From positions 24,888 through 88,887 of the forward strand of contig JAOABX010000012.1 in assembly GCA_026418175.1 (NCBI GenBank): DNA of 64,000 bases. Reading direction: 5' to 3'. Position 1 is the stretch's first letter; each line of letters starts with the position of its first letter. The position numbers and the translations under genes were made by a program. The notes beneath the pieces were generated by a model. The model did no database searches. It was not told the origin of the DNA and saw only the letters and a program-made list of their open reading frames with translations. Positions 8,161 to 64,000 of the stretch are shown piece after piece. This stretch comes from Flavobacteriales bacterium (GTDB lineage Bacteria > Bacteroidota > Bacteroidia > CAIKAF01).

Positions 8161-9405
8161 ATGCTTTACCTGAAACTAATATGGGAAAGTGCAGCTTTTG
8201 CGTTGGGCTCTCTTATCGCTAATAAGCTACGTACGATGCTTTCGCTGCTTGGGGTTGTTATAGGAATTTTTGTAATCATTTTGATTTTAGCTGCTGTTGA
8301 TTCATTGAAAAAGGATGTAAATGATAGTATATCTTCGTTAGGCGATGATGTAGTTTTTATTCACAAATGGCCTTGGGAAGGAGGATTTGACTACCCGTGG
8401 TGGAAATATATGCTTCGTCCACAACCCGAAATTGAAGAAATGGATGATATTGCTAAGCGCAGTGAACTGGCAGAGGTTGTATCGTATCGAACTGTAACCA
8501 ATCGCTCAGTAAAATATATGAATAACACCATCCCTTCGGCTGAAATTAATGGCGTTGGAGATCATTACGATAAGACCAGCACCATTGAAATTAGCAGCGG
8601 ACGGTACTTTACTGAAACAGAAATCAGGGCTGGAAGAAATGTAGCCATTTTAGGCCATGATATTGCACAAGGATTATTTGATAATGAAGATCCAATTGGA
8701 AAAAATATCAAGATTAAAGGAAGAAATTTTGAAGTAGTGGGTATTTTGCAAAAAGAAGGCGAAAGCTTATTAGGCACAGGTGCCGACGAAAGAATTTATG
8801 TACCATTTGTAGCAATGCGCTCGTTAGTGGATTTAAATAATTGGCGGGTACATAAAGAGATTATCATTAAAGCCAAACCTGGTATTTCCAATGCTGAATT
8901 AAAAGATGAATTAACAGGGATAATGCGTTCCATCCGAAAACTAAAGCCCATCGAAGAAGATAATTTCTCGCTTAATGAAGCCAGCATCCTGGCAAATGAA
9001 ACCGCAGGAATCACCAGTATTCTGAATATAGTAGGTTGGGTAATTGGCTTACTGGCCATTTTTGTTGGCGGATTTGGCATTTCAAACATCATGTTTGTTT
9101 CTGTGAAAGAACGAACTAACCTGATAGGAATACAAAAAGCACTGGGTGCAAGAAAATCGTTTATTCTTCTTCAGTTTTTAGTTGAATCACTGGTGCTTTC
9201 GTTAATTGGGGGAGTATTGGGTTTATTGCTGGTATTCTTCACTTCGCTAGCCGTTCAAGCAGTATCTACCTTCAATCTTTCCCTTTCTGCTAGTAATGTG
9301 ATGGTAGGAATCATAATTTCGGGCATTGTAGGATTAATTTCAGGAATTGTACCGGCATGGTCTGCAGCACAGCTTGATCCGGTAGAAGCCATTCGTTCAA
9401 AATAA
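8161..9405 (+). CDS. ABC transporter permease, MacB/FtsX-like
   Basis: N-terminal TM + MacB periplasmic core + three C-terminal TMs; VKERTNLIGIQKALGARKSFILLQFLVES and DPVEAIRSK. Confidence 0.9.
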   Translation: MLYLKLIWESAAFALGSLIANKLRTMLSLLGVVIGIFVIILILAAVDSLKKDVNDSISSLGDDVVFIHKWPWEGGFDYPWWKYMLRPQPEIEEMDDIAKRSELAEVVSYRTVTNRSVKYMNNTIPSAEINGVGDHYDKTSTIEISSGRYFTETEIRAGRNVAILGHDIAQGLFDNEDPIGKNIKIKGRNFEVVGILQKEGESLLGTGADERIYVPFVAMRSLVDLNNWRVHKEIIIKAKPGISNAELKDELTGIMRSIRKLKPIEEDNFSLNEASILANETAGITSILNIVGWVIGLLAIFVGGFGISNIMFVSVKERTNLIGIQKALGARKSFILLQFLVESLVLSLIGGVLGLLLVFFTSLAVQAVSTFNLSLSASNVMVGIIISGIVGLISGIVPAWSAAQLDPVEAIRSK

Positions 9406-9456
9406 CTCAGTATTCTAAAGAATTTCTATTTTTGTGAAATAAGAAAACTTGGCACT

Positions 9457-9723
9457 ATGGCAAAAGATAAATCTGCACCTACGAATACGGGACCTTTAAA
9501 CTCAGGAGCTTTCCCTCTGGGTAAGAAAAACTTCCTGTTACTGGGTGTGGGAATTATTGTTATTATCATTGGATTTTTACTGATGCAAGGAGGCGGCTCA
9601 GCCGACCCCAATGAATTTAATCCTGAAATTTTTAGCTTTCGTCGCATTACTTTGGCTCCTATTGTAGTTCTTCTTGGCTTTGCAATTAACATTGTAGCCA
9701 TTATGAAAAAATTTAACGATTAA
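9457..9723 (+). CDS. DUF3098-like small membrane protein
   Basis: 88-aa, two TM helices, [29 protein letters not shown] pattern; next to uppP. Confidence 0.75.
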
Positions 9724-61860: not shown

Positions 61861-62868
61861 TCATACCCAACGGCGAAGTGCTTTTTCCAACCGTTTTTTT
61901 ATTGATTTTCGCAAGTTTATGGGTTCTACAACTTCCAAACGATCTGCATATTTCATCAGTAAAAATTCAAATTCGGCATTTGGAATAATTTGCAATTCAA
62001 TACGTTTTATTTTCCCCGAAGTATCTAAAGGCCGTTGACTGGGATGTAAGGGTTTGGTTTCCAGATACGGATAAAGTTCTTCATTTACATCCAGCACTAT
62101 CCGCTCAATATGACCATCGCGTGGAAATGACACTCCTATAATATGATCAAAATAATGCAGGAGCAATTCCTTTCCTTTTTTGTAAAAACTACATTTACAT
62201 TTCTTAATTTGTTGAATACGGTCTAAAGCAAAATTATAAATCAATTTTTCCTCCTCATTCCAACCTAATAAAAACCACCGATTATTATACTCCTTTAACA
62301 AATACGGATGCACGGTATGTTCAATTTCTTTTTCTTCTATGAAAGGTTTGTAGGTTAATTTCAGGCATTGTTCCTTTCGAATAAAACCATGCAAAGGTTC
62401 AATCCACCGAATACCGGCGTAGGCATCATTTTTATCGAACAAAATTACCGGTGAAGCCGGGAAATGATAGGTAGCCATTTCGGCTTTGAGTTTTCCTAAT
62501 ATTCCATACAAACTTTCCAGATGAAGCAATCCTTTAAACTGTTCTAACAAATTGATGGCTTCTTGCAATGCAGCTAAATCGTCCTCATTGTAGGGCGAAT
62601 GCATGATAGAAAACTCAGGGTCTTCATACATATAATATCCGTTCTTACATACAATGGGGGCATCAAATCCTCTCGGATATGGACTTCGCATTACATTAAT
62701 ATCATTAAAAAACGTACGACGCGAAACCCCTTTATCAATGCCAAATTGTTCGTATAGTTCTTTGGATAATACATGCAATAAATCTTCCAGCGTATATTTT
62801 CGATACTTATTACGCAGGCATTTATCAATCACCCGATAACGAAAGGAAGCTAATTTATTGGTAGGCAT
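61861..62868 (-). CDS. WYL-domain transcriptional regulator
   Basis: N-terminal HTH-like region and WYL core (EQCLKLTYKPF...HTVHPYLLKEYNNRWFLLGWNEEEKLIYNFALDRIQQI). Confidence 0.88.
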   Translation of the reverse strand: MPTNKLASFRYRVIDKCLRNKYRKYTLEDLLHVLSKELYEQFGIDKGVSRRTFFNDINVMRSPYPRGFDAPIVCKNGYYMYEDPEFSIMHSPYNEDDLAALQEAINLLEQFKGLLHLESLYGILGKLKAEMATYHFPASPVILFDKNDAYAGIRWIEPLHGFIRKEQCLKLTYKPFIEEKEIEHTVHPYLLKEYNNRWFLLGWNEEEKLIYNFALDRIQQIKKCKCSFYKKGKELLLHYFDHIIGVSFPRDGHIERIVLDVNEELYPYLETKPLHPSQRPLDTSGKIKRIELQIIPNAEFEFLLMKYADRLEVVEPINLRKSIKKRLEKALRRWV

Positions 62869-62968
62869 AAGTAGTGCAAATAGATTGCACAAGGTAATAA
62901 TAATTTTGGAAATTAAAAATTATTAACTACTTTTAAAACAATTATTCTTTTATAAAATTAATTATATT

Positions 62969-63328
62969 ATGATAACAATTGCAAGGATAATAAAAAAATT
63001 CGAGCCTGAAATTGTTAGCAATGGGCTAAAAAAACAAGGTTGGCTGATCAGTGAAATGCAAGGGAATGAAAAAGAAATTTATATTAATGTATGGGGTAAT
63101 AAAATTGAAAAATATAAAGATATACATGACGGAGTCTTTTTATTTTCATTATCAGTAAAATCATCAGTTAATAATGAAAAGTATTACACAAATATATCTC
63201 TTCTTGAAGTGATTGAATTAATTGATAAAGAAAATAGGGTAAATAATTATCCTACTAAAAATATTGAATCTAAAAAAAATTTAAATAATGATTATTTAAA
63301 CAATTTGATAGAAAAGTATTTAAAATAA
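62969..63328 (+). CDS. DUF3127-like OB-fold (putative ssDNA-binding) small protein
   Basis: 119 aa; IARIIKKF...LKKQGWLISEMQGNEKEIYINVWGNKIEKYKDIHDG...NNEKYYTNISLLEVIEL resembles the DUF3127 pattern (KKQ.fvi...vwGdK.......G......Y.di.....i). Confidence 0.6.
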   Translation: MITIARIIKKFEPEIVSNGLKKQGWLISEMQGNEKEIYINVWGNKIEKYKDIHDGVFLFSLSVKSSVNNEKYYTNISLLEVIELIDKENRVNNYPTKNIESKKNLNNDYLNNLIEKYLK

Positions 63329-63382
63329 AGTATATTAATTTAAAATTATAAACTTATGCAGAATAATTGCACTTTATAATTG

Positions 63383-63390
63383 TAGATTTG
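63383..63390 (+). promoter_or_regulatory. Candidate -7 element TAGATTTG for the retron-like ncRNA/RT transcript
   Basis: Exact TAnnTTTG immediately before a1; a convincing -33 element was not found at normal spacing. Confidence 0.45.
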
Positions 63391-63398
63391 TCAAAGTT

Positions 63399-63637
63399 CT
63401 TTGAAACACCTGCCCAAGATATTGATTCGTGGGTGCTGGGAGTAGCTGGGTAACCAGTAAAACAATGATCGGCATCTTATCCCAACCTCTGGTTGGGATG
63501 AATGTCACTGAGGCATTTGTAACAACAGTTATTGATTTCAAAGTCAATAATATGAAGTTGTTATTGATGTAATTATTAGTGATGAATGGGTATTGATTTA
63601 TACATACAAAAAGAGTATCCGGCAGGTGTTTTCAAAG
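63399..63637 (+). ncRNA. Retron-like msr-msd non-coding RNA
   Basis: Terminal inverted repeats CTTTGAAACACCTGCC (63399-63414) / GGCAGGTGTTTTCAAAG (63621-63637), internal hairpins at 63446-63457, 63473-63504 and 63519-63564, TAGC at 63443-63446; directly upstream of an RT ORF. Confidence 0.78.
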
Positions 63638-63655
63638 TCCTTCAAAACACCATAC

Positions 63656-64000
63656 ATGAAAATTGAACAGGCACATATTGATCAAATAAGGAAGCAATTT
63701 GCAGAACTGCAAAGCAAGGAGGACTTAGTGAAACTATTAAGTGAAGCCAAGAACATGCTTTACGGTGAGAAATGTAAACCGGTTCAATTAAAATCATTGA
63801 CCTATTACGCTAATCCTTTACTTTGCAAAAAGCGTTATCAGACCTTTACCATCAAAAAAAAGTCGGGTGCAGACAGAACCATCCATGCACCCGTGAAAGG
63901 TTTAAAATCTATCCTTCGCTCTCTCAACTTTGTACTGCAATGTGTATATGAGCCCCATGAAGCAGCAACAGGTTTTGTTTTGGGCAGGTCAATTGTTGAC
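63656..64000 (+). CDS. Retron-type reverse transcriptase (RVT_1), N-terminal 115 aa; truncated by window end
   Basis: Open frame from ATG 63656 to window end: ...YQTFTIKKKSGADRTIHAPVKGLKSILRSLNFVLQCVYEPHEAATGFVLGRSIVD, matching the RT motif 0/1 pattern of retron RTs (IpKKsGg.R.I.AP...LK.i...l...l......a.GF...rSI). Not in the ORF track, presumably because no stop lies in the window. Confidence 0.88.
   Translation, partial: MKIEQAHIDQIRKQFAELQSKEDLVKLLSEAKNMLYGEKCKPVQLKSLTYYANPLLCKKRYQTFTIKKKSGADRTIHAPVKGLKSILRSLNFVLQCVYEPHEAATGFVLGRSIVD

Follow-up and report, generated by a model that had tools for sequence, protein, structure and literature searches.

At the right-hand end of the window, a stretch of 64,000 nucleotides corresponding to G000:C3:24888-88887, a structured non-coding RNA (ncRNA) is followed by the start of a reverse transcriptase (RT) gene, and both are preceded by a small gene and a divergent regulator gene. 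Retrons are bacterial RT systems with a known role in anti-phage defence, and we regard it as close to certain that this locus is one. The RT gene is truncated because the assembly contig, C3, is 88887 bases long and ends at window base 64000. The features are listed below.

61861..62868, minus strand: WYL/WCX-domain transcriptional regulator, divergent (Pfam WYL 1.9e-12, WCX 9.2e-6)
62874..62890, no strand: predicted palindromic operator GTGCAAATAGATTGCAC before the regulator gene, with the same motif as before the ncRNA
62969..63328, plus strand: small OB-fold protein of 119 aa, divergent DUF3127 family (Pfam DUF3127 E=0.00054, under the curated cut-off)
63356..63372, no strand: second predicted operator, the palindrome ATGCAGAATAATTGCAC, 39 nt before the conserved ncRNA start GTTCTTTGA
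63383..63390, plus strand: predicted promoter -7 element TAGATTTG
63396..63637, plus strand: retron ncRNA (msr-msd), from fold, covariation and covariance model
63399..63414, plus strand: a1 arm CTTTGAAACACCTGCC, pairing with a2 (97.7% of cells paired, 24 loci)
63431..63477, plus strand: msr hairpin with a constant base (base helix 99.5% paired, 24 loci) and a variable tip
63480..63498, plus strand: second msr hairpin, TCCCAACC to GGTTGGGA (98.8% paired)
63504..63590 (approximate ends), plus strand: long A+T-rich hairpin in the minimum-energy and centroid folds, presumed msd template
63621..63637, plus strand: a2 arm GGCAGGTGTTTTCAAAG, the perfect complement of a1 (16 bp) save one bulged T
63656..64000, plus strand: retron RT, first 115 aa (retron profiles; identity to L004 and L005)

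The folding energy of the ncRNA region was -90.3 kcal/mol, compared with -62.5 ± 4.8 kcal/mol for 200 shuffled sequences, none of which was as low (z -5.8), in agreement with the structured RNA proposed in the initial annotation. The inverted repeats and their single bulge were found exactly where that annotation had placed them, and the spacing of 18 bp between the end of a2 and the ATG of the RT at 63656 was likewise as given. Relatives of the locus were gathered by a scan of GTDB genomes, which yielded 41 loci, nearly all labelled as Bacteroidota. A consensus ncRNA structure from 24 loci comprises 34 pairs with 96% of cells paired, and two-sided compensatory changes occur at 15 of the 34, including three pairs of the a1 helix, 6 of 6 in the tip of the first msr hairpin and 5 of 7 in the second. 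Cells with two-sided changes numbered 54, against 14.2 ± 3.3 after shuffling (0 of 500 as high) and 4-15 in slid controls; the shuffles leave the kinship of the loci in place, and the slid controls retain it too, yet lie far below the observed count. The 5' half of the ncRNA from 21 loci, including the window, served to train a covariance model. With E<1e-4 as the limit, the model recovered the ncRNA in 22 held-out loci, a short distance before the RT, and gave no further match in the 307 kb scanned; the match in the window, itself a training row, scored 103 bits (E 1.6e-24). The a1/a2 repeats and hairpins are thus conserved among homologous loci, on which the earlier reading had been made to depend, and the covariance-model search that it had recommended recovered the ncRNA. 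A scan against Rfam returned no retron family and a single chance-level match. The A+T-rich 3' half of the ncRNA, presumed to be the msd, is its most variable part, and the long hairpin shows little sequence conservation from locus to locus.

Two relatives depart from this layout. In L012 (4654-4998) the ncRNA reaches about 345 nt owing to duplication of a hairpin segment (ATCGGCATCTTCTCCC is repeated), and in L018 (4096-5001) it begins 905 nt ahead of the RT, a gene of unknown family (187 aa) being inserted between the two, and both the operator and the ncRNA are still intact.

The RT reading frame (63656-64000) is uninterrupted over its 115 aa, starts at the position previously assigned and has its best profile matches among retron RTs (RT-TIR_XII 7.6e-19, RT-Protease_XI 1.5e-17). 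This portion is 96% and 93% identical to the RTs of L004 and L005, respectively, the range over the 41 relatives being 42-96%. No contig of the same genome was found to carry the rest of the gene. Complete RT genes in the relatives encode 388-886 aa, the longer ones having an insertion or a C-terminal domain; the proteins either stop near 396 aa or bear a HisKin-conflict domain. The catalytic motif YADD and the motif (V/A/T)TGL were each present in 39 of 39 complete RTs and NAxxH in 38 of 39, the exception being L044 with N-S-x-x-H. Profile searches placed these RTs far closer to retron RTs than to group II intron, DRT2 or other RTs, and the solved structures nearest in sequence were those of retron-Ec67 (6.6e-33) and retron-Ec86 (5.5e-29). 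The assignment to a retron-type RT therefore stands, the alternative of a group II intron or other non-retron class was not borne out by the profile ranking, and the msr-msd-RT order claimed for the window is conserved in the relatives. No relative was found among the viral contigs searched with the query used.

Broken RT copies also exist (L040), and some copies come from bins labelled as Atribacteria (L006, 94% identity over the 115 aa), Bacillota (L014, 89%), an archaeon (L021, 83%) and Phycisphaerales (L037, 59%); these labels reflect either misbinning or horizontal transfer.

In most of the 41 relatives, the RT has a homologue of the WYL regulator gene upstream, at a distance of no more than about 2.2 kb. 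We took the ATG at 62868 as the start of the regulator, since a longer TTG-initiated ORF would overlap the operator. Nearly all relatives have the pattern TGCAN7TGCA 38-39 nt (in a few loci, 42-52 nt) upstream of the ncRNA, and the palindrome GTGCAN7TGCAC precedes the WYL regulator gene in many loci. As the exact palindrome has a chance expectation of 0.34 per window, the weight of this observation rests on its fixed place in the relatives. The predicted -7 element fits the Bacteroidota promoter consensus TAnnTTTG, and a TAnnTTTGC-type sequence is present upstream of the ncRNA in relatives too. On these grounds, the WYL regulator probably autoregulates the system through the shared palindromes. 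For the small ORF at 62969-63328, a model built from six DUF3127 proteins of retron loci ranked it first of the 231 window ORFs (E=4.8e-7), and clear DUF3127 genes lie inside or next to about nine related loci; its product is a candidate single-strand-DNA-binding partner.

The source genome has a further contig, C16 (L052), which begins within a helicase gene, i.e. in the middle of an operon, and carries the following features.

C16 1-1335: RecD-like helicase with a TBP-TOTE domain, 5'-incomplete (TBP-TOTE 1.3e-28)
C16 1325-2881: TPR-OB TOTE protein, 518 aa (S1CSD-TOTE-1/2 1.3e-23, 1.3e-26)

TOTE stands for TPR, OB, TBP and Effector, a name used in PMC12458937 following Aravind 2022. A TPR-OB protein and a TBP-domain protein in one operon, a feature of such systems, are found on C16, where PADLOC identifies the two genes as PDC-M16A/B. 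In the relatives, the gene order is RT, effector, helicase and TPR-OB. The only close RT match of the genome is the right end of C3, its only close helicase match is the left end of C16, and the two ends are compatible in orientation; C3 and C16 are thus probably adjacent, with the rest of the operon on C16. The genus relatives checked for this join offered no informative synteny. The order we infer would be WYL regulator, DUF3127-like gene, ncRNA, RT, gap, helicase-TBP and TPR-OB, in which the gap of about 2.6 kb would hold the rest of the RT, the effector and the N-terminal 292 aa of the helicase. Many of the related loci also lie on short contigs, which suggests that near-identical copies in a metagenome break the assembly.

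Across the class, 6 of 395 genomes have a helicase that scores more than 300 bits, with 41-83% identity. The same RT is present in four of these (G000, G012, G217 and G227), with both at one locus in three, G000 being the source genome; in the other two (G083 and G118), contig ends adjoin the helicase operon. The remaining helicases, among the matches listed, are about 33-41% identical and mostly resemble general helicases. In two relatives a DUF1016/YhcG PDDEXK nuclease gene is inserted in the interval between effector and helicase (L022 7293-8291, L025 7044-8042).

The effector adjoins the RT in the relatives, and the copy of the source genome would fall in the assembly gap. Two modules were distinguished. 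The first consists of a HisKin-conflict protein and an iREC-receiver protein, usually together with a protein of about 200 aa; 12 loci have the HisKin-conflict protein as a fusion to the RT, and 11 have it as a separate protein. The receiver domain matches the folds of PleD and NtrX and retains the acidic pair, the phospho-acceptor D and the K. An R[NS]-x-H motif lies near the C-terminus of the receiver protein in 22 of 23, and two of these proteins gave weak matches to HEPN_RiboL-PSP (0.002 and 0.041). On complete Chryseobacterium plasmids, this module is found with the helicase and the TPR-OB gene, adjoining type I restriction genes. In the second module a single helical protein, 237-335 aa long, stands alone. 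All of about 20 such effectors examined, one of them split, contain R[ND]x(2-3)HR, which corresponds to Rx3-4H where the HEPN criterion is Rx4-6H, and in a structural model of the protein, which is helical, the R of the motif lies at a helix end. The stand-alone effector gave no match to the Pfam HEPN models, its model gave no significant match to PDB folds, and a profile comparison with the receiver protein found nothing; as neither the Pfam nor the fold search backs it, the HEPN reading rests on the motif. We suggest that the stand-alone effector and the receiver C-terminus are HEPN-type RNases, and hold this function to be moderately probable.

Mapped on the RT tree, the label of the second module needs 11 changes, at least five of them forced by well-supported branches, a total that many random labellings (110 of 500) do not exceed. 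The effector is thus swapped on a stable RNA-RT chassis, and the module has been exchanged repeatedly while the ncRNA and RT stayed nearly constant.

Among known systems, the closest RT profiles in the PADLOC and NCBIfam models were those of types XI (RT-protease) and XII (RT-TIR), the PADLOC ranking of the RT being XI 336 bits, XII 317, I-C 293, XIII 265 and IX 153. The relatives differ from both types in carrying HEPN-like or kinase-receiver modules and TOTE genes instead of a protease or TIR domain; neither fusion was met among them. In the solved type IX retron Kva2, the RT-msDNA complex holds a HEPN dimer, and the phage protein D5 frees its tRNA cleavage (PMC13405049). The arrangement proposed here, a HEPN RNase effector held by an RT-msDNA complex, is similar, but the type IX profile reached 153 bits where the best profile reached 336, no winged-helix partner (a type IX feature) was noticed among the neighbouring genes, and the effectors here contain a form of the linear R-x-H motif, which the HEPN protein of Kva2 lacks. 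By the features tested in the relatives, the system is not of type XI, XII or IX, and no PADLOC retron type fits. The TPR-S1/CSD protein and the helicase with a TBP-TOTE domain resemble TOTE systems and PDC-M16, except that these genes sit downstream of a retron RT and ncRNA. Retron-Ec67 and retron-Ec86, whose RTs are the nearest solved ones, use Toprim and nucleoside deoxyribosyltransferase effectors, neither of which was found here. The retron is ordinary in kind and unusual in company: the combination with TOTE genes was absent from the classification library searched, and no retron accompanied by TOTE genes or by a histidine-kinase module emerged from a literature search of incomplete coverage, on which no priority can be claimed.

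The RT scores for types XI and XII would suit an ordinary retron of either type whose fused effector domain was lost in the assembly gap. We consider this very improbable, as no protease or TIR architecture occurs in the 39 relatives with readable RTs, the nearest of which are 90-96% identical over the shared part, the NCBI RT-TIR model gives 273 bits against a cut-off of 600, and TOTE genes open C16 in the source genome itself. Even less credible is a degraded, non-functional remnant. The RT is incomplete in the assembly and a broken copy is known, but the frame is intact to its last base, as are the ncRNA pairing, the promoter and, as far as they were read, the helicase and TPR-OB genes.

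The choice of effector is closer. L004, which has the nearest RT start, is a kinase fusion, module and RT phylogeny are poorly linked, and the helicase and TPR-OB genes come after the kinase module as well. A kinase-receiver module in the source genome is nevertheless unlikely: it would need a gap of about 5 kb rather than 2.6 kb, the C16 helicase is 83% identical to that of L005, a locus with the HEPN-like module, and the kinase family PF22561 was not detected in the assembled contigs, in a search run without a positive control. This last result favours the second module, though the gap could hold a kinase, and we regard the HEPN-like module as rather probable in the source genome. Whether the retron and the TOTE pair belong together may also be questioned: PDC-M16A/B is a candidate in its own right in PADLOC, effector and helicase often stand a short interval of about 50 bp apart, and some relatives have an RT and effector with no helicase near. 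Two independent neighbours with no functional tie nonetheless seem a somewhat doubtful reading, given that close helicases were found only in genomes that carry the same RT or on contigs that stop short of where it would lie, and follow both effector modules. A functional tie of the retron to the TOTE genes is, on balance, what we favour. The loci with RT and HEPN-like effector but no helicase beside them (L120, L123, L124 and L125) are a possible minimal form; from the compact L120, L124 and L125, the TOTE part may be optional or a separate system.

We propose, with a fair degree of confidence in the whole, a Bacteroidota retron in which a constant ncRNA-RT sensor chassis holds a HEPN-like effector silent, with TOTE partners and under WYL control. 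The RT would make msDNA by copying the msd part of the ncRNA, and the RT-msDNA particle would keep the toxic effector silent. In the source genome, this effector is most likely a HEPN-like RNase encoded in the gap of about 2.6 kb, and is expected because such a gene follows the RT in relatives that have the same helicase and no kinase. A phage product would alter the particle and free the effector, which would then cleave RNA and bring the cell to a stop. The RecD-like helicase-TBP and TPR-OB proteins, as TOTE-type partners, would probably either contribute to the trigger or target nucleic acid that is foreign or damaged, and the WYL protein would control the promoter through the palindromes. 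A broader generalization is put forward tentatively, as a possibility we rather doubt: a single retron chassis, its ncRNA and RT reaching about 96% identity, that drives exchangeable effectors, signals in some genomes by a phosphorelay through an RT-histidine-kinase-like fusion and receivers with HEPN-like ends, and works with the TOTE helicase and TPR-OB protein.

If the proposal is true, retron sensing by RNA, RT and msDNA is separable in nature from the killing step, because nearly the same sensor bears different effectors, and the loci provide matched natural pairs for testing what the RT and RNA recognise. A true link between retron and TOTE genes would unite two defence families that have been studied apart, and the palindrome shared with the WYL regulator would make it directly testable how a retron is switched on or held in the off state.

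C16 also carries a second, different retron-like RT (8330-9660, 388 aa, with YVDD and VTG), about 5.6 kb after the TPR-OB gene. It was considered as the missing part of the window RT and rejected, being about 30% identical and a complete gene of its own. The RNA ahead of it is strongly folded (z -4.95), with the ends CCTGTGCTGC and GCAGCACAGG.
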